From positions 1 through 40,327 of the forward strand of contig JAHEJC010000013.1 in assembly GCA_024639065.1 (NCBI GenBank): a DNA stretch of 40,327 bases. Direction: 5' to 3'. The notes beneath the pieces are model-generated. The model worked only from the letters and a program-made list of their open reading frames with translations, was not told the origin of the DNA and searched no databases. A program made the position numbers and the translations under genes. Shown piece by piece: positions 1,017 to 38,803 of this stretch. The stretch comes from Lewinellaceae bacterium (lineage in GTDB: Bacteria; Bacteroidota; Bacteroidia; Chitinophagales; Saprospiraceae). Each line of letters starts with the position of its first letter. Position 1 is the stretch's first letter.

Positions 1017-2588
1017 TTACCACAACCAATACAATATAGTAAATATCAGTCCAGCCAATACCACCATCATATACTTGTAGTTAAGATACCAAGGCATGCC
1101 TTCGGTACCCTCACTAATATATACTTTCTTGAAAGTCAATTGATCCAGTTGCTCGCCTGTTGGTTGAGGAGTTAGATTACTAACCACAATAAAAATGATC
1201 GTGCTGAGGAAAAACATGACCCCAACATTAATGGTATAGTGTAAGGTCCAGATACCCATTTCACCTAAAATGAATGCAAGAACACCGGCTGCCGTACCAA
1301 TCACTAAGGTCCAAAACGCACCATGTCCATTGCCGCGTTTGTAGAAAACACCGATCAAGAAAATGACAGCAATGGGAGGTACTAATATCGAAAACATTTG
1401 CTGCAGGTAATCCCAAAGTCCGGTAAAGTGTTGGATTTGAGGCGCCCACAATGCGGCTACAAACATCAATATAATAGTGGTAATTCGACCATACCGGGCA
1501 ATATCGGTTTCAGTTAATTCGGGTTTTTTAGGCGCAATAAAATCAATGACTAATAGAGTAGAAGAAGAATTTAATGCGGAATCCACACTAGACATAATGG
1601 CGGAGATCAGCCCTGCCAACACCAACCCGATTAGTCCTACTGGCAATACTTCGGTCACCAATTTGGGGAATACTTCATCCCCATTAGCCAGACCAGGATA
1701 CAAACTTATAGCCATAGCTCCAGGAATAACCATAATAAACAAAGGGAGTATTTTCAGAAAACCAGCGAGTATGACACCCCAACGTGCTTGGTTGAGATCC
1801 CGGGCACCCAGGACCCGTTGGATGATGTACTGATTGGTTGACCAGTACCAGAATCCCATCAATGGCACACCGAGGATCAACCCCGGCCAGGGTATTCCAG
1901 GATCATCTAAGGGCCTGACGACCGAAAAATGGCCTTCTGGTGCGGCATTGATAACATTACTCCATGAATAGTCCATTTTGCCAAATAAGATCCAGGTCAT
2001 AATCGAACATCCGACAATTAAGATTATCGCCTGAATAGAATCCGTATAAACCACCGCCTTTAGTCCACCAAATGCGGTGTAAATACCGGCTACAAAGGCT
2101 AGCAAAAAAGCCGTTTGCCACATGATTATATCCGGGAAAAAAGCCTTCAATACTAATGTGCCAGCATATAATGCACCCGCCGTTTCAATTAGGATAGTAC
2201 TAAATATACTGACCGCAGAAAAGAACAATTGGCTTCGACGATCAAATCGTTTTTCCAGATATTCCGGAATCGTAGTTACTCGATTCTTTAAATAAAGCGG
2301 AACAAATATTAAGGCGGCCACAATTAGAGGTAGGCCGGACATCCATTCGTAGACTGAATTAACAATACCGGTCGTATAGGCTGCACCTGTTAAGCCAATA
2401 ATGGTAGAGCTTGAAATATTAGAAGCAAATAAAGACAATCCAATCAAGCCCCATCCAAAACTTCTGCCACCCAAAAATAAGTCTTCCCCAGTTTTAGTAG
2501 ATCGAGCAAAATAAAACCCCAGGCCTAACACTAATGCGAAGTATCCTACTATAATGATGAGATCCGTATTCGATATTATGGTATTCAT
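1017..2588 (-). CDS. Sodium/solute symporter (SSS family, SglT-like)
   Basis: 523 aa, multiple TM segments; 'TGEDLFLGGRSFGWGLIGLSLFASNISSSTIIGLTGAAY' and 'YWSTNQYIIQRVLGARDLNQARWGVILAGFLKILPLFIMVIPG' are typical of SSS/SglT. Confidence 0.93.
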   Translation of the reverse strand: MNTIISNTDLIIIVGYFALVLGLGFYFARSTKTGEDLFLGGRSFGWGLIGLSLFASNISSSTIIGLTGAAYTTGIVNSVYEWMSGLPLIVAALIFVPLYLKNRVTTIPEYLEKRFDRRSQLFFSAVSIFSTILIETAGALYAGTLVLKAFFPDIIMWQTAFLLAFVAGIYTAFGGLKAVVYTDSIQAIILIVGCSIMTWILFGKMDYSWSNVINAAPEGHFSVVRPLDDPGIPWPGLILGVPLMGFWYWSTNQYIIQRVLGARDLNQARWGVILAGFLKILPLFIMVIPGAMAISLYPGLANGDEVFPKLVTEVLPVGLIGLVLAGLISAIMSSVDSALNSSSTLLVIDFIAPKKPELTETDIARYGRITTIILMFVAALWAPQIQHFTGLWDYLQQMFSILVPPIAVIFLIGVFYKRGNGHGAFWTLVIGTAAGVLAFILGEMGIWTLHYTINVGVMFFLSTIIFIVVSNLTPQPTGEQLDQLTFKKVYISEGTEGMPWYLNYKYMMVVLAGLIFTILYWLW

Positions 2589-2604
2589 CTAAAAAGCCTT
2601 AAAA

Positions 2605-7472
<4,868 letters not shown>

Positions 7473-17725: not shown

Positions 17726-18949
17726 TTGAAACATACAATCTATATCATTTTTGGAATCTTACTATCCATTGGTTGTTCATATCAGCCTACCTCAAACATC
17801 ACAAAGTTGGAATTTGGTCCAGGAGATGAAGACGACATAAGATTAGCCTTCATAAATTTAGTGGATAGTACTGAAGTTAATTTAGCTGAGGGTATTTACA
17901 ATTTTGAAAAACTTTCAATAATTGGTAAACTGGCTAATATTTCGTTGAAAGGTGCCGGTCCGGATAAAACAATTATTGACTTTTCTTCACAGGCCTCAGG
18001 TGGTGAAGGATTGAGGATTGACAATATTAATCAACTTACTATTTCGGACCTCCAATTAAGGGAGTCCAAGGGTGATTTGTTGAAAGTAAAAGATTGTGAT
18101 GGTGTTGAATTGATCAATGTTCACACCATTTGGGAAAGTGAAGCAAATAAAGAAAATGGAGGTTACGGACTTTATCCAGTTTCGTGTGAAAATGTTTTGA
18201 TCGATGGATGTTATGCCAAAGGGGCTTCTGATGCTGGAATATACGTTGGACAATCAAATAAAGTAATTGTCCGGAATAGTAAGGCAGAATTGAATGTGGC
18301 TGGTATTGAAATTGAAAATACCACCGATGCTGAGGTATTCAATAATGAATCTACCAATAATACCGGAGGCCTTTTGGTTTTTGATCTACCGGGATTATCT
18401 CAGGCAGGAGGTAATGTTAAAGTATACAAAAACAGGGTATACAATAATAACTACAGAAATTGGGCCCCAGCTGCGAATAGTGCCACTGGTGTCGGTAATG
18501 TCCCTCCGGGAACCGGAATTATGATTTTATGTACATCCGATGTAGAGGTGTACGATAATCGAGTAGAGAATAACAACACTATGCCGATTGGCATACTTAG
18601 TTTCTTAACGGTGGATCCGAATATTATCAAAAACGATCCAACATTCAAGCCAATCCCATATAATATTTATTTACATGATAACGAGATTTCCAAGAAGGAT
18701 GAGTTTCCTGAGCATGTACGAACACATGAATTATCCATGGTTTTAGTGTCTCTTGATTCTAAGTTGAAAGAATCAGGATTTCCGGGGATACCGCCCATTT
18801 TATTTGATGGAATTACTTTACAAGAAGGAGACAATCCGACCAACATTTGTATTAAGGAAAAAGTGAGTTATTTAAATATGGACGTGGGCAATGAATTTGC
18901 TTCACCTAGTTACGATAATGAATCCTTTAATTGTGAAATCAGTCTGTAG
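17726..18949 (+). CDS. Parallel beta-helix repeat lipoprotein (TIGR03805-like)
   Basis: 407 aa, TTG start; lipobox 'LLSIGCSYQ'; right-handed beta-helix pattern 'NKVIVRNSKAELNVAGIEIENTTDAEVFNNESTNNTGGLLVFDLPG...VKVYKNRVYNNN...VEVYDNRVENNN'; followed by a TIGR03806-like gene. Confidence 0.86.
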   Translation: MKHTIYIIFGILLSIGCSYQPTSNITKLEFGPGDEDDIRLAFINLVDSTEVNLAEGIYNFEKLSIIGKLANISLKGAGPDKTIIDFSSQASGGEGLRIDNINQLTISDLQLRESKGDLLKVKDCDGVELINVHTIWESEANKENGGYGLYPVSCENVLIDGCYAKGASDAGIYVGQSNKVIVRNSKAELNVAGIEIENTTDAEVFNNESTNNTGGLLVFDLPGLSQAGGNVKVYKNRVYNNNYRNWAPAANSATGVGNVPPGTGIMILCTSDVEVYDNRVENNNTMPIGILSFLTVDPNIIKNDPTFKPIPYNIYLHDNEISKKDEFPEHVRTHELSMVLVSLDSKLKESGFPGIPPILFDGITLQEGDNPTNICIKEKVSYLNMDVGNEFASPSYDNESFNCEISL

Positions 18950-18952
18950 TGT

Positions 18953-20008
18953 ATGATGAGCCGTAGTAAATATTTACCTTGTTTCTCGACGATCGTAATA
19001 ATTACTATCCTAGCAGGAGCTTGCTATAGGGATCAGCAAAAAGTAAGCACTGAGCATGCTCATTTTCCAACACGCTTATCCGAATTGGATTTGTTTGAAG
19101 AACCCATTTCAAATTTGATTTCCACATCTGGTGTTACTCCATACGAATTGAATACGCAGCTTTTTACAGATTATGCCCAGAAATCTAGATTCATTAAGCT
19201 ACCTATTGGACACAACTTAAAAGTTCTGGAAGGGGATTTAGAATTTCCAACAGGTACTTTGCTGATAAAGAACTTTTTTTATAATAAGGATGAGCGGGCG
19301 CCAGCTGAAGGAAGAACGATCATCGAAACCCGTTTACTTATCAAAGATATTGATGGTTGGCAAGTGGGCGTATATGAGTGGAATGACCAACAAACAGATG
19401 CGAAATTCTTACAGCTTGGTAGGAAAAAAGAAGTATCCTGGATAGCGGATAATGGCAGTCTTCAAAACATAAAATACGTAATACCAGATATCAATGATTG
19501 TAAGGGGTGCCATATTAATGACGGCGAAATATTGCCTATCGGGCCAAAATTGCGAAATCTAAATTATGTTAATAATGAAGGCAATTGGCAGTTAGATTCT
19601 TGGCTTGAGAAAGGAATATTAGTTGGCTTGAATTCACATGCCGATGCAGACAGATTACCCGTTGCGACTGACCATGAATTTAATTTGAATGAGCGAGCCA
19701 GAGCGTATCTTGATGTAAACTGTGCTCATTGCCATACCGCTCAAGGACCAGCAGATAATACCGGTCTTTTTTTAGAATATGAGCAGAAGGATCCTTTTAA
19801 AATAGGAATCGGTAAAGGACCTGTTTCAGCTGGAATTGGATCCGCGGACTTGATCTACGACATTGTTCCGGGAAGTGCAGATTCTTCAATTGTCTATTAT
19901 CGCATGCAGTCAACAGAAACCGGGATCGCCATGCCTGAACTGGGCCGAACTATAAATCATATTGAAGGTCTCGAATTAATCAAAGATTGGATAAATCTTA
20001 TGGATTAA
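18953..20008 (+). CDS. Diheme c-type cytochrome lipoprotein (TIGR03806 / SO2930-like family)
   Basis: 351 aa; lipobox 'LAGACYRD'; two CXXCH motifs, 'DCKGCHIN' and 'NCAHCHTA'; 'LSELDLFEEPISNL...GVTPYELNTQLFTDYAQKSRFIKLP' characteristic N-terminus. Confidence 0.87.
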   Translation: MMSRSKYLPCFSTIVIITILAGACYRDQQKVSTEHAHFPTRLSELDLFEEPISNLISTSGVTPYELNTQLFTDYAQKSRFIKLPIGHNLKVLEGDLEFPTGTLLIKNFFYNKDERAPAEGRTIIETRLLIKDIDGWQVGVYEWNDQQTDAKFLQLGRKKEVSWIADNGSLQNIKYVIPDINDCKGCHINDGEILPIGPKLRNLNYVNNEGNWQLDSWLEKGILVGLNSHADADRLPVATDHEFNLNERARAYLDVNCAHCHTAQGPADNTGLFLEYEQKDPFKIGIGKGPVSAGIGSADLIYDIVPGSADSSIVYYRMQSTETGIAMPELGRTINHIEGLELIKDWINLMD

Positions 20009-20014
20009 GTTATA

Positions 20015-22759
20015 ATGGGGTATTCAAAGAATATAATAATTATCTTACTGGTCAGCTTAAGTCTAATACCTATAAGTGCACTTGCCCAAGAATTTCAAGG
20101 AACTATTGTTGATGGCGAATCAGGTGAACCGTTGGTAGGTGCCTGCTTTTCAGTGCTCGGTTATACGATTGGGACATGTACAAATGTGGATGGATATTTT
20201 ACTTTAATGAATACACCTAAAGATTCGTTTAGTATCGCTTTGTCCTACCTGGGGTATCAGTCGGATACCATGCTCATAACGGACCCATCTACAGAAATTA
20301 AGATTGAGATGCTTCAGGAGCATTTGGTATTATCTGAAGTTGAGGTGGTTTCAGATTATTCCAAGATTAAACAAGAAGTGGCCTTGACGGTAGAGTCAAT
20401 GGGGCTTCAAGAAATAGAGAGCAACTCAGAATCCAGTTTTTACGATATCCTGGCAAGTATGCGTGAAGCAGATATGATGACCGTAAGTTTCGGGGTTAAG
20501 GTGGTCAATACCCGAGGCTTTAATTCCAGTACGCCAGTAAGGTCTTTACAGCTGATTGATGGAGTAGATAATGCATCGCCGGGATTGAATTTTCCACTGG
20601 GTAATTTTATGGGTCTGCCGGATCTGGATGTTGAAGGAGTTGACTTAGTGATCGGTGCAAGTTCAGCTTACTTTGGTCCTGGAGCGTTTAACGGAGTCGT
20701 CAACATGCGCACCAAGGATCCTTTTAAATATCAAGGAATTGATATTCAGCTGAAAGGAGGTATGCGTAATTATTTTGAAGGAGCCATTCGTGCAGCCAAA
20801 GCTTTTAAGAATAAAAAAGGCGATGAAAAATTTGCTGCTAAATTAACTATGTCTTATCAAACTGTCCGGGACTGGGAAGCCAATGATCAATCTCCTTCTT
20901 TTGAAAATTTAAGGGATAGTATTTATGCGGACAATCCAGGAGGATATGATGCTATCAACAAATATGGAGATGAACCGTCTGCTATTTATACATCTCCATT
21001 TGAACAATTCAGACATCCTGGTTTAGGCACTTTTTTTAGAACGGGTTATTGGGAAACAGATTTGGCTAGTTATGATAGTTATAATATTAAATCTTCGGTG
21101 GGCATCCATTATAAACCCAGGAAAGATTGGGAAATAATTGCTACCACAAATTTTGGGATTGGCACTACAGTTATGCAACTAGATAACCGGTTGAGTCTAA
21201 ACGATGTTTGGGCGATGAATAATAAACTAGAGGTAAAGAAGAAGGATAAATTCTTCATCCGATTTTATACCACTAAAGAAGATGCAGGAGACACTTATGA
21301 TATTATCACCACAGGACAAATATTACAATCAAGGTGGAAAAGCGACGGTAGTTGGCTGAACGAGTACAAAAATTATTGGTTCAGGAATATCAATCCATTA
21401 GTCAAAGAATTGCCCGGGTTTCCTAGTATTGGACCAGCCCCTGATTTCTATTACGACTTCGATCAAGCAAACAAAGTCTTGGAAGACAATGCTGATATGC
21501 TCACTTTATGGCATGCCCAGGCCAGAGCTGCTCAGGATGGAGCCTATTTAATCCCTGGTTCTGACGAATTTAACCATGTTTTTAATAACATTGTCAGCAC
21601 AAAAGTTTCTGAAGGCGGAACCAAATACGTTGACAAATCTCGCCTATTTCATGGTCATGCTGAATATAAATTTAAGCCTCGATTCGTCGATGAATTTATT
21701 ATCGGTGGCAATTTTAGATTATATGCACCCTACTCAGAAGGGACCATATTTGTGGACACTTCTGGCACATCATTTACTACTTATGAGTTTGGCGGTTATT
21801 TGGGGTTTGAAAAATTTATGGCGGACGATCGATTAAAACTCAATTTTGCTACCAGGATAGACAAACATGAAAACTATGATTATCTCATTAGTCCGGCATT
21901 GTCACTGCAGTACATTCTTTCTCCATTAAGTTCAATTAGACTCTCTGTATCATCAGCTTTGAGAAATCCAACCCTCATAGAACAGTATTTTTATTTTAGA
22001 GTAGGATCAGCGATACTCTTGGGTAATATAAATGGATATGAAAACCTGGTCACCTTAAATTCTTTTGAGAATTATTTGAAGACGGACCTAAATCAGGATT
22101 CATTGGTATATTTTGATGAACCTCCCGTGGTACCCGAAAAGGCTACCGCCATGGAGCTGGCTTTTTCAACCGTTTTGTTTGAAGATAAACTGGACGTGAA
22201 ATCCACTTTGTATTTAAACCGGTATAGGGATTTTTTAGGTAACAAGATTGGACTTCAATTACCTTTTATTCAGGGTTTTCCTGGGCAGCCTATTATATAT
22301 AGGTTCGCTGCGAATGCAAAAGATATTACCTATACAGTTGGGTTTTCGACCGGATTAACATATGTCCTTTCCAGGAATATACGGGTAACAGGAAATTACT
22401 CCTGGAATAAGATCTTTATTGATTCTGATGATCCGCTGATACCTTCTTATAATACACCTGAACATAAGTTTAATTTAGGATTTAATATTGATCGTTTTAA
22501 ACTTGGAACAATTAATGACTTTGGATTTGGGACTAATTTTAGATGGGTGGAAGGTTATAAGTTTGAAAGCTCTCCTCAGTTCTCCGGTGAAATTCCAGCT
22601 CAGATTCACCTTAATGCTCAAATAAGTAAAAGAATTCCTAAATTGGGTACCACAATTAAATTGAGTGGATCTAATTTACTCAACAGACAACAGAATGGAC
22701 TTTATGGAGGTCCCAAAGTGGGACGATTTATATTTTTATCATGGCATCTTTCTTTATAA
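20015..22759 (+). CDS. TonB-dependent outer-membrane receptor with N-terminal CarboxypepD_reg-like domain
   Basis: 914 aa; signal peptide; 'FQGTIVDGESGEPLVGACFSVLGYTIGTCTNVDGYFTL'; plug 'VNTRGFNSSTPVRSLQLIDGVDNASPGLNFPLGNFMGLPDLDVEGVDLVIGASSAYFGPGAFNGVVNMRTK'; C-terminal beta-barrel ending 'FIFLSWHLSL'. Confidence 0.93.
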   Translation: MGYSKNIIIILLVSLSLIPISALAQEFQGTIVDGESGEPLVGACFSVLGYTIGTCTNVDGYFTLMNTPKDSFSIALSYLGYQSDTMLITDPSTEIKIEMLQEHLVLSEVEVVSDYSKIKQEVALTVESMGLQEIESNSESSFYDILASMREADMMTVSFGVKVVNTRGFNSSTPVRSLQLIDGVDNASPGLNFPLGNFMGLPDLDVEGVDLVIGASSAYFGPGAFNGVVNMRTKDPFKYQGIDIQLKGGMRNYFEGAIRAAKAFKNKKGDEKFAAKLTMSYQTVRDWEANDQSPSFENLRDSIYADNPGGYDAINKYGDEPSAIYTSPFEQFRHPGLGTFFRTGYWETDLASYDSYNIKSSVGIHYKPRKDWEIIATTNFGIGTTVMQLDNRLSLNDVWAMNNKLEVKKKDKFFIRFYTTKEDAGDTYDIITTGQILQSRWKSDGSWLNEYKNYWFRNINPLVKELPGFPSIGPAPDFYYDFDQANKVLEDNADMLTLWHAQARAAQDGAYLIPGSDEFNHVFNNIVSTKVSEGGTKYVDKSRLFHGHAEYKFKPRFVDEFIIGGNFRLYAPYSEGTIFVDTSGTSFTTYEFGGYLGFEKFMADDRLKLNFATRIDKHENYDYLISPALSLQYILSPLSSIRLSVSSALRNPTLIEQYFYFRVGSAILLGNINGYENLVTLNSFENYLKTDLNQDSLVYFDEPPVVPEKATAMELAFSTVLFEDKLDVKSTLYLNRYRDFLGNKIGLQLPFIQGFPGQPIIYRFAANAKDITYTVGFSTGLTYVLSRNIRVTGNYSWNKIFIDSDDPLIPSYNTPEHKFNLGFNIDRFKLGTINDFGFGTNFRWVEGYKFESSPQFSGEIPAQIHLNAQISKRIPKLGTTIKLSGSNLLNRQQNGLYGGPKVGRFIFLSWHLSL

Positions 22760-22778
22760 TTAATAAAAACTATCAATT

Positions 22779-24362
22779 GTGAAAAGAAATTTACGAAGCA
22801 CCTGTTTGATTTTATTGCTTGCGAGCTTAACTAACTTAGTCGCTCAAACCAGATACAATGATCCAATTTTCGAAAAGGTAATCGTAACTTCCGATGAGAT
22901 TTTCGGAATAAATGTCAGCATTGAACCGGCATTGACCGGTGGTGACCCAGCTCCGGTGGAGCTGAAAATGGATATTTATGAACCTGAGGGCGATTCTGCT
23001 ATTGCCAGACCGGTTGTTATTTTTGCGCACCTGGGAGACTTTTTACCGCCCATTGTTAATACATCACCTTATGGTTTTAAGACAGACAGTGCACTGGTAG
23101 AGATTTGTACGCGATTAGCAAAAAGAGGATTTGTGGCCGTATCCATTGACTATAGGTTGGGATGGAATCCTTTTGGATCGGGTATTGAAATTAAATCCTC
23201 TGTATTACAGGCTGTATATCGTATTACTCAGGACATGCGAACAGCTGTAAGATTTTTCAGAATGGACGCCAATGAACAAGGAAATAGATTTAGAATAGAT
23301 ACAGGAAGAATTGCGGTTGGTGGATTTGATGCAGCTGGATGGGGAGCCCAAAACTGCGCAAATCTGAAAAACTCTGAACAAACATTACTTGAAAAATTTG
23401 TTGATTTATCTACCCAACCTGCTACCCCTTTCATTTATGAACCAGTGTTTGGAGATCCATATGGAATTGTTGCCGGAGATATTAATATTCCGAATCATCC
23501 ATCTTATTCTTCAGAGGTCAATGTGGTTATAAACATTGAAGGTGGATTGGGCGATTTTTCCTGGCTGGAAGCTGGAGATGCACCGGTGATTGCCTTTGTA
23601 AGAGATGGGAAACAGAATCAAAACGCAATACGCGATGTCACGATAGCAGTAGGTGGTGCCATTATCATTGCCAGTGGCGCTTTCCCCGATACGATCGTTC
23701 ATCGATCTCAGGAATTAGGTAATCAGGATGTTTTCCTCAATGCAGGATTTGAAGACACAATCACTCAGATTGCCATGGAGAGATCCGGAGGCTTAGAAGG
23801 TATTTTCTATTACCGGCCTTACACGGATACCGGTTCCGTTCAGTGCGATCAGACTGCTGGGGTTCCAGCAGTGGGGTATGGTGGAAATACCTATGCTTGG
23901 GACTGGTACAATGAAGATTGGTTTGCAGCAGTTTGGGATGGTTCCATGCTAAATCCTCCGTCTGGAATTAAAATTTGCGAATACAATACCAGCCAAGGGA
24001 ATCCAAATGATCCGGTAATTTCCAGGATGATGATCGATACGTTTGAATGGTTTATGGTTCCCCGATTGATGGCTGCTTTTGGATTGGGAAATACTACTTC
24101 AAGTGTTTTTAAAGTTAACACTGATGATGTAGGATTTAAAGCTTTTCCAAATCCAACATCACAGCGTATACAATTTTACGCCAAGGAAAGAATCAAAGGT
24201 TATCAGCTTTATGATTTAACCGGAAAATTAGTTTCTAGAATAGATAATCTGGATAATTATGAAGCCAATGTGAATTTACATGCTTTGCCAGCAGGATCTT
24301 ATTTTGCTAAAATTAGATTTGAAAAAGGAGTGCTCGTTGAAAAGATCATCGTAGAGAAGTAA
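22779..24362 (+). CDS. Alpha/beta-hydrolase (esterase/lipase-like) protein with T9SS type A C-terminal sorting domain; Ser->Asp at nucleophile elbow
   Basis: 527 aa, GTG start; signal peptide; 'RPVVIFAHLGDFLPP', 'LAKRGFVAVSIDYRLGWNPFG', elbow 'RIAVGGFDAAGWGAQ'; C-term 'FKAFPNPTSQRIQFYAKERIKGYQLYDLTGKLV...LPAGSYFAKIRFEKGVLVEKIIVEK'. Confidence 0.82.
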   Translation: MKRNLRSTCLILLLASLTNLVAQTRYNDPIFEKVIVTSDEIFGINVSIEPALTGGDPAPVELKMDIYEPEGDSAIARPVVIFAHLGDFLPPIVNTSPYGFKTDSALVEICTRLAKRGFVAVSIDYRLGWNPFGSGIEIKSSVLQAVYRITQDMRTAVRFFRMDANEQGNRFRIDTGRIAVGGFDAAGWGAQNCANLKNSEQTLLEKFVDLSTQPATPFIYEPVFGDPYGIVAGDINIPNHPSYSSEVNVVINIEGGLGDFSWLEAGDAPVIAFVRDGKQNQNAIRDVTIAVGGAIIIASGAFPDTIVHRSQELGNQDVFLNAGFEDTITQIAMERSGGLEGIFYYRPYTDTGSVQCDQTAGVPAVGYGGNTYAWDWYNEDWFAAVWDGSMLNPPSGIKICEYNTSQGNPNDPVISRMMIDTFEWFMVPRLMAAFGLGNTTSSVFKVNTDDVGFKAFPNPTSQRIQFYAKERIKGYQLYDLTGKLVSRIDNLDNYEANVNLHALPAGSYFAKIRFEKGVLVEKIIVEK

Positions 24363-24364
24363 TA

Positions 24365-24552
24365 CTAGTGCATCAAGAACGAAGTAATTACGGTATAAAA
24401 CGATGAAGATTTTTTCCAAGATCAAGGCGAAAAACGTAGGCATAGCCAAGATACGGCGAGGCTTTTCAACCTGCCTTTGCCGCAGGCAGGCGAAGATATT
24501 GGGAAAAAGATCGAGTTTTAAATGTAACTTTATTTTGTTCTTGATGCACTAG
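24365..24552. repeat. MITE-like palindromic element with 16-bp perfect terminal inverted repeats
   Basis: ctagtgcatcaagaac (24365-24380) versus gttcttgatgcactag (24537-24552); partial inward continuation of the palindrome (gttttaaa, ggaaaaa); internal hairpin cctgcc-tttgccgca-ggcagg (24470-24490); internal direct repeat ccaagat (24416-24422, 24446-24452); flanking ATA/ATA. Confidence 0.75.
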
Positions 24553-24673
24553 ATAATCTAAAGGATTAACGGAGGAATGCATTTCAATGTGTTCCTCTAT
24601 TTTTTTGGTATTTAGAGAAACTATCGATGGATTCCGGGTACCATGTAGCTTGAAACAAATTCTTTGGATGCTG

Positions 24674-37321: not shown

Positions 37322-38803
37322 ATGACCAGATCAACAGCTGTTGCAATCATTACCATGTTGTTTTTACCTGTAGTTAACGCCCAAAATGAGCAATGGGGCA
37401 AATTAGCTAATCCTGGTTATATTGATCAACCCATTAAGAGTGCTTATTTCTTTACTGGTAATTGGCGAAATGGAGTCCAATTTTATGATTACAATCCATC
37501 CAATAACACAGGACTTTATACTGTGCACCCTGCAGATTCGAGACATTTAGGCTGGTCAGAGAATGTTGCTTTCAGGGATTTTGCTATTCAGGCGATGGTT
37601 GATGCAGGCGTCAATGTGGTCAATATGTCATATTGGGGATTACCTGGTTCTGACAACTGGGCTTTCTGGTCTCCCATGCAGACTTCAACCACTTCGCATG
37701 ATGAGTTGTTCGACGCTACTTTGGGAAAGAATATTCTAATTGCACCTTATATTGAGTCTTTTGCTCCGACAGACGCCTTTAGCGGATTTTCATTTGTTGA
37801 CGACTTCCCGGGATCAGCTTCCCAGCCAGCTCCTGTATTGAGCTCGTTAATTGAAGATTTGGTGGATAGATATCTATTAAACCCGGCCAATGCTAAATGG
37901 CCTTCAAAGTGGGCCAAAGTATATGATCAGAATGGGCAGGAACGTTACCTTATTTCTATTATTCATGTGGCATCCAACCAGGCTTTGGTGACCGATCAGA
38001 TTTTTGCTGATGGATTTGATCGGGTTGCAGATGCCGTATGGAATAAAACAGGGATTCGCATTGGATTTGCACTCGATATTTTACCTGGCAATAGCTTTGC
38101 GCCTGGTATATTCAAAGCCACCCCCACCAATACGGGCCCTCGGCTTGCACAACAATTATCAGTGATCGCTACCCAATGTTTTATTCCGGAGATTTGGACA
38201 GGTATGAATGATGAACATGATTTAACTACATGGAAAAAGGCATACCAAAACTCATGGATTAATACAGGGATTCCATTTGTGCACGATATTTCATCAGGAT
38301 ATGATGCACACATTGTTTTTCCTTCTTCACCCCAATATGGCAATAACGATTTATGGCGAAATTTACAATCACAGGCTATCCAAGATTTTGGTAGCCAATC
38401 GTTTACAATTAATACCTGGAATGGATATACTGAAGGCTTTACCGGTGTGCCTACATTACAATATGGCGATGTGACCTACAGTTGGATTTGTGCTCTTTTG
38501 GGTGGCAATTGTGGTAATAGTACCTATCATATTCCTGTGCAGTCAGATCAATTGGTTGAGGTATTTCCTAATCCTGTTTCGGATTATTTATCTATCCAAC
38601 TTAAAGATCCAGGTGGGCATCTTATCTCTACCAAAATAGCGGACATAAATGGGCGGACAATTAAATTATGGCAAGAGGATCTGTCTAACAATCTAATTAT
38701 GCCTACCGAACTCAAAACAGGCAATATTCCTGACGGAATTTATTTTTTATTTATTCAGACAGAGAAGTCCAGTTACGTAAAAAAGATAGTGAAGGCAAAA
38801 TAA
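37322..38803 (+). CDS. Exported DUF5010/glycoside-hydrolase-like (GH71/GH99-type appearance) protein with T9SS type A sorting domain
   Basis: 493 aa; signal peptide 'MTRSTAVAIITMLFLPVVNAQ'; 'IKSAYFFTGNWRNG', 'MVDAGVNVVNMSYWG', 'FTINTWNGYTEG'; C-term 'VEVFPNPVSDYLSIQL...DIPDGIYFLFIQTEKSSYVKKIVKAK'-type sorting domain. Confidence 0.7.
   Translation: MTRSTAVAIITMLFLPVVNAQNEQWGKLANPGYIDQPIKSAYFFTGNWRNGVQFYDYNPSNNTGLYTVHPADSRHLGWSENVAFRDFAIQAMVDAGVNVVNMSYWGLPGSDNWAFWSPMQTSTTSHDELFDATLGKNILIAPYIESFAPTDAFSGFSFVDDFPGSASQPAPVLSSLIEDLVDRYLLNPANAKWPSKWAKVYDQNGQERYLISIIHVASNQALVTDQIFADGFDRVADAVWNKTGIRIGFALDILPGNSFAPGIFKATPTNTGPRLAQQLSVIATQCFIPEIWTGMNDEHDLTTWKKAYQNSWINTGIPFVHDISSGYDAHIVFPSSPQYGNNDLWRNLQSQAIQDFGSQSFTINTWNGYTEGFTGVPTLQYGDVTYSWICALLGGNCGNSTYHIPVQSDQLVEVFPNPVSDYLSIQLKDPGGHLISTKIADINGRTIKLWQEDLSNNLIMPTELKTGNIPDGIYFLFIQTEKSSYVKKIVKAK

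Follow-up and report, generated by a model that had tools for sequence, protein, structure and literature searches.

The described systems closest to the locus reported here are two kinds of TonB importer with surface partners, which determine the nutrients that Bacteroidota can take up. In SusCD importers and utilisomes the gene for a surface partner, the SusD lipoprotein, lies next to that for a TonB barrel with a CarboxypepD_reg_2 extension (PMC7618045), and in the vitamin B12 importers of Bacteroides the TonB receptor BtuB is paired with BtuG, a surface binding lipoprotein of non-SusD fold (PMC10404256). A further relative is the gene pair TIGR03805/TIGR03806, a beta-helix protein and a diheme cytochrome; a literature search on these families, on SO2930/SO2931 and on HNE_0200 returned no function for the pair, just passing mentions of Shewanella cytochromes. 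Here we analyse a four-gene block, P1-P2-P3-P4, in a 40,327-nucleotide stretch of a Lewinellaceae bacterium (the window, which is the entire contig C118 of G000, a 6.77 Mb draft genome), where this pair directly precedes a TonB receptor and a protein with a Type IX secretion system (T9SS) sorting tail. A preliminary description of the DNA had read the block as an envelope pathway that binds, cleaves, imports and oxidises a specific organic ligand; our results support that reading in part and recast the block as an old, widespread receptor/pseudo-hydrolase unit, joined in one clade by a redox pair that is known but has no characterised function.

The described layout was confirmed by open-reading frame calls: all four genes lie on the plus strand at 17726-24362, separated by 3, 6 and 19 bp. 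The export signals were likewise recovered, with lipoboxes in P1 and P2, signal peptides that both end in AQ in P3 and P4, and a T9SS tail on P4 that scores over its cut-offs. The features are:

17726..18949, plus strand: P1, right-handed parallel beta-helix lipoprotein of the TIGR03805 family, TTG start (TIGR03805, PF13229, PF05048; lipobox SIGC)
18953..20008, plus strand: P2, SO2930-family diheme c-type cytochrome lipoprotein (TIGR03806, AlphaFold; lipobox LAGAC)
19499..19513, plus strand: P2 heme-binding motif CKGCH, residues 183-187
19721..19735, plus strand: P2 heme-binding motif CAHCH, residues 257-261
20015..22759, plus strand: P3, TonB-dependent outer-membrane receptor with CarboxypepD_reg_2 (PF13715) and Plug (PF07715) domains, subfamily A (clade A in the tree)
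22779..24362, plus strand: P4, alpha/beta-hydrolase-fold protein with a T9SS tail, lacking the catalytic Ser and His, GTG start (TIGR04183, PF20434, fold, motif counts)
23328..23330, plus strand: P4 codon for Asp184 at the nucleophile-serine position (GGFDAAG against GxSxG; alignments and PDB profile alignment to Lip_vut4)
24144..24353, plus strand: P4 T9SS type A C-terminal sorting domain, residues 456-525 (TIGR04183 42.1 bits, cut-off 23; PF18962 40.6 bits, gathering 27)

P4 had been called a hydrolase, and its fold is that of an alpha/beta hydrolase: the top PDB match is the esterase Est2 (Thermogutta, 5ao9; E 3e-8), and it matches PF20434 (BD-FAE) weakly at 30.9 bits (gathering 26.8), yet the GxSxG serine and the histidine of BD-FAE catalysis are both missing. 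At the nucleophile elbow, the GxSxG position, the motif is G-G-F-D-A/S-A-G in clade A, the receptor clade in which the window P3 falls with 100% support, and G-Q/E-G-T-G-G-Y in most others. Across the 91 distinct P4 sequences in which the nucleophile position could be read, it is occupied by Gly (79), Asp (7), Asn (3), Tyr (1) or Glu (1) and never by Ser. A HMMER alignment to the lipase Lip_vut4 (6nkf) sets GDSSGG opposite GqGtGG, which confirms the register of the elbow. No conserved His follows the elbow in the P4 alignments, the sole conserved one being H84, before it. Lower-scoring P4 relatives near some P3-type receptors keep GxSAG (loci L147, L156, L158, L207, L216 and L155), so that the loss of the active site is specific to the receptor-linked P4 family; to judge by their motif, these relatives are apparently active esterases, placed beside a receptor or beside an inactive copy. 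With the nucleophile Ser absent, no conserved His and the fold kept, we read P4 as a binding pseudoenzyme, probably not an enzyme at all, and the cleavage step of the preliminary description is left unsupported because P4 appears to lack the residues needed for it. Neuroligins and GID1 are inactive alpha/beta hydrolases that serve as binding proteins, and neuroligin-4 is among the matches of P4 (E 0.0034). P4 is most likely a surface partner of P3 that binds ligand, its gene standing where that of SusD stands in SusCD; both the surface location and the binding role of P4 are inferred.

Clade A P4 could alternatively be an active Asp-nucleophile enzyme of the dehalogenase or epoxide-hydrolase kind, which would trim the ligand ahead of its import. 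Asp nucleophiles are known among alpha/beta hydrolases, in the haloalkane dehalogenase type, the Asp at the nucleophile position is invariant in clade A where other clades mostly have Gly, and clade A alone adjoins the redox pair. However, the conserved His base of haloalkane dehalogenases and epoxide hydrolases is absent, since H84 is the only invariant His in clade A, the acid Asp of other clades (position 278) is missing there as well, and the sister group (78 sequences) has entirely lost the nucleophile, all of which makes an active P4 improbable.

The receptor and its pseudo-hydrolase partner form a unit of their own. Among profile models P3 matches SusC/RagA best, at 90 bits, far under the cut-off of 368 and over residues 27-250, that is, the N-terminal domain and plug alone, and a PDB sequence search returned no relative of its barrel. 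A search of 84,980 species genomes with the P3 alignment found at least 586 relatives, in Bacteroidota, and the best 80 were taken as a set of named loci (Saprospiraceae, Flavobacteriales, Chitinophagales, Crocinitomicaceae and others). A P4 homologue stands directly downstream of the receptor in 66 of the 80, with about ten having no P4 beside the receptor; full-length homologues occupy this position in nearly all examined neighbourhoods, and a P4 match was present in 295 of 298 genomes of the family, an upper bound because matches to the T9SS tail alone were also counted. As the preliminary description had stated, there is no SusD partner: the gene after P3 is P4, and neither P4 nor any other scanned neighbour matched a SusD model. 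Nor was a constant third partner of P3-P4 found among the 80 loci; a ZIP-type transporter-like gene (8/80) and a PAP2-like gene (7/80), both upstream and identified by eye, were set aside as probably local synteny. P3-P4 is an older and far more widespread unit than the four-gene block, usually lacking the beta-helix/diheme pair, and to our knowledge it is undescribed. A second receptor/pseudo-hydrolase unit is present in the window's genome itself (L135; G000:C369:126-4624); it is Gly-type and not visibly beside a pair. If P4 is indeed a binding partner, a T9SS-sorted inactivated hydrolase would be a design unlike SusD, BtuG and similar lipoproteins, and with such a partner in hundreds of genomes the annotation of many 'T9SS hydrolases' would change to binding protein.

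The other half of the block belongs to the families named in the preliminary description, both scores lying above the curated cut-offs: P1 is a member of TIGR03805 (beta_helix_1; 329.9 bits, cut-off 141.5) and P2 of TIGR03806 (SO2930 family diheme c-type cytochrome; 342.7 bits, cut-off 313.3). P1 also matches PF13229 at 55.0 bits, and a PDB sequence search with its beta-helix matched only preneck appendage proteins and one lyase. Both CxxCH motifs of P2 are kept (C183, C186 and H187; C257, C260 and H261), invariant in 29 relatives, and in its predicted structure (AlphaFold, predicted local distance difference test (pLDDT) score 86.6) an antiparallel beta domain closes with the helix of the first CxxCH, and a helical cytochrome c domain follows. 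P2 probably combines an N-terminal cytochrome P460 / c'-beta-like domain carrying heme 1 and a C-terminal class I cytochrome c domain carrying heme 2. Three weak lines suggest the relationship of the first domain: a Foldseek search with the P2 model gave no significant match (best E 0.054), with P460 ranked third and c'-beta structures recurring; PF16694 (cytochrome P460) matches 9 of the 29 relatives with E values no higher than 1 (the best 0.0026), the window P2 being unmatched and thus no P460 member by the gathering score; and profile comparison of the domain with P460 reached 86% probability over a short stretch, against <0.5% for ten shuffles. Neither P1 nor P2 has an acidic run after its lipoprotein cysteine, the feature that sends Bacteroidota lipoproteins to the surface, and its absence would place both on the periplasmic side.

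TIGR03806-like domains (195-239 bits, under the cut-off) also occur inside large proteins of the genomes G014, G045, G284 and G332, and both of the two that were scanned (L088, L087) are fused to a pyrroloquinoline quinone (PQQ)-type GSDH dehydrogenase domain (PF07995), one of them with legume-lectin, PA14 and PKD domains as well; G045 has eight TIGR03806 matches in total. This suggests that P2 exchanges electrons with an oxidoreductase, and the oxidation step of the preliminary description is plausible because P2 is a cytochrome and related domains are fused to PQQ dehydrogenases.

Across genomes the pair is mostly independent of P3-P4. TIGR03806 is over its cut-off in 47 of 101 relatives, and when the TIGR03806 loci of these were fetched and the surrounding genes called, P1 adjoined P2 in 42 of 53 loci, often as a bicistron (co-directional with a 3 bp gap in the window), with variable outer neighbours. 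Of these 53 loci of the order just three, the window among them, have the P3-P4 unit beside the pair; counting TonB receptors of every kind, seven loci have one immediately adjacent, plus one separated by P4. Receptors are nevertheless enriched among the direct neighbours of the pair (7 of 102 slots vs a background of 2 of 361; Fisher p = 0.0005) and belong to at least three types. The same is seen on a Novosphingobium megaplasmid, where an insertion sequence-broken receptor is followed by the beta-helix and diheme genes; in the vicinity are one more receptor, a PQQ-dependent dehydrogenase, and aldehyde and alcohol dehydrogenases. In L054, L067 and L084 a second kind of receptor adjoins the pair, a protein of ca. 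795 aa (CarboxypepD_reg_2, weak Plug) that follows P1-P2.

Some of these neighbourhoods bear on the chief rival explanation, a serious one, metal or metallophore acquisition, by which P3-P4 would take up a chelated metal that the NosD-like P1 and the diheme cytochrome would free by periplasmic reduction. The pair follows receptors in L063 and L068, the L063 receptor best matching the TonB-siderophore model, one of the receptors beside the Novosphingobium plasmid pair is annotated with siderophore transport, and P1 matches PF05048 (NosD, a family involved in copper delivery) above its gathering score (33.5 bits, gathering 23.6). However, P1 lies far under the cut-off of TIGR04247 NosD (26.2 vs 300 bits) and the similarity may merely reflect beta-helix repeats; the P3 match to SusC/RagA and the fusion of related cytochrome domains to a PQQ-type dehydrogenase, with no metal protein, also count against metal release, which we consider somewhat unlikely.

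The two units meet in receptor clade A, where the closest named relatives of the window are an uncultured Lewinella and an uncultured Saprospiraceae bacterium. The order P1-P2-P3-P4 is shared by the window, G038 and G178 (three species, two genera; the G178 contig ends after P3 and its P4 is on another contig), whilst G014, G235 and G284 (three species, one third genus) have P3-P4-P1-P2, an order that G160 also fits, though its genes are split across contigs, and G332, of a fourth genus, has P1-P3-P4. P1 stands beside the clade A receptor in seven of eight judgeable genomes, each of the eight other clade A genomes has both pair families over their cut-offs, compared with 47 of 101 relatives for TIGR03806, and in the named set the pair was beside non-A receptors at none of 78 loci. 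The receptor and P4 as an extension of the pair, proposed in the preliminary description, therefore recur in other clade A genomes, conserved in a few genera, yet are no general property of either unit. In the tree of P1 and P2 the window pair branches with that of G038, while the G014, G235 and G332 genes fall on a different branch, among unlinked pairs, and a tree uniting all five in one clade was rejected (p-AU 0.0004, approximately unbiased test; the attached group was defined through gene context, not through the tree). Two pair lineages attached to a single receptor clade imply that pairs were acquired twice or that one was replaced; both point to a functional link and argue that the tie of the pair to clade A was formed or renewed at least twice. 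Chance, or a merely regional neighbourhood of two unrelated units, would agree with the separate lives of most pairs and most receptor-partner units and with the few lineages involved, but is an unlikely explanation given that the linkage occurs in two orders and involves two distinct lineages of the pair, that the gaps within P1-P2-P3 are tight (<10 bp) and that both pair families are present throughout clade A.

We therefore favour, at a little under an even chance, two modules in one operon-like block, a TonB importer with its surface partner (P3-P4) and a redox lipoprotein pair (P1-P2). P4 would be exported by the T9SS and tethered to the cell surface; there its fold, no longer carrying catalytic residues, may capture the ligand (or lid the barrel) for P3, as SusD does for SusC and BtuG for BtuB. 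P3 would import the captured ligand, P1 would hold or present it, periplasm-facing, and P2 would exchange electrons with it and hand them to the respiratory chain, electrons presumably flowing in that direction and both modules presumably handling one ligand. Several points weigh against this. Asp184 of clade A could in principle act as a nucleophile, though the needed His is not conserved, and the P4 structure model is of moderate quality (pLDDT 75.4). In G045 a clade A P3-P4 stands apart from the pair, and the P2 of G332 sits elsewhere. Most pairs occur without any receptor, so that P1-P2 must also work alone. The number of independent linkage events is small, and since clade A species within a genus are non-independent, the linkage counts rest on few of them. 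The broader proposal, a widespread new class of TonB importer in Bacteroidota with a T9SS-delivered pseudo-hydrolase surface subunit, and with a periplasmic diheme redox pair linked to one of its clades on more than one occasion to give a one-ligand import-and-redox pathway, is possible and offered more tentatively. The repeated coupling also gives a handle on the function of the TIGR03805/TIGR03806 pair, which should act on what clade A receptors import.

Downstream of the block, one further feature may mark the end of its transcript:

24571..24598, plus strand: terminator-like 12-pair stem plus T-run, possible transcript end (consensus scan)

It lies 209 bp 3' of P4, and shuffled DNA yields about equal numbers of such sites in these scans. 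P4 is separated from the next gene by a stretch of ca. 190 bp (24360-24556) flanked by the inverted repeats CTAGTGCATCAAGAAC and GTTCTTGATGCACTAG; with a second copy (81% identity) and a partial copy on contig C507, it looks like a small mobile element resembling a miniature inverted-repeat transposable element. Elsewhere in the window, a 493 aa protein at 37322-38803 also has a T9SS tail, with no other Pfam domains found, and three co-directional genes on the minus strand (1017-7472), encoding a sodium:solute symporter, a GH2 beta-galactosidase and a melibiase/GH31-like protein, are probably an ordinary sugar-use cluster.

Compared with known systems, the block is in part familiar. P3-P4 shares with SusCD (PMC7618045) the extended TonB barrel and the adjacent surface-partner gene, but P3 is under the SusC/RagA cut-off, the partner is a T9SS-sorted hydrolase-fold protein instead of a SusD lipoprotein, and the four-gene block holds no glycoside hydrolases. 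With BtuB-BtuG (PMC10404256) it has in common a TonB receptor with a predicted non-SusD binding protein, whereas BtuG is a lipoprotein of another fold than P4, without its T9SS tail, and nothing in P3-P4 points to B12. P4 retains the fold and motif context of BD-FAE and esterase-type alpha/beta hydrolases (PF20434, Est2, Lip_vut4), from which it differs in having lost the nucleophile Ser and catalytic His. Similarly, P2 resembles cytochrome P460 / c'-beta in an antiparallel beta domain followed by CxxCH, but all matches are under thresholds, the aligned part is short and P2 carries an extra cytochrome c domain. Finally, P1-P2 is a TIGR03805/TIGR03806 pair by curated cut-offs, order and spacing, and unlike most such pairs it is attached to a P3-P4 receptor unit.

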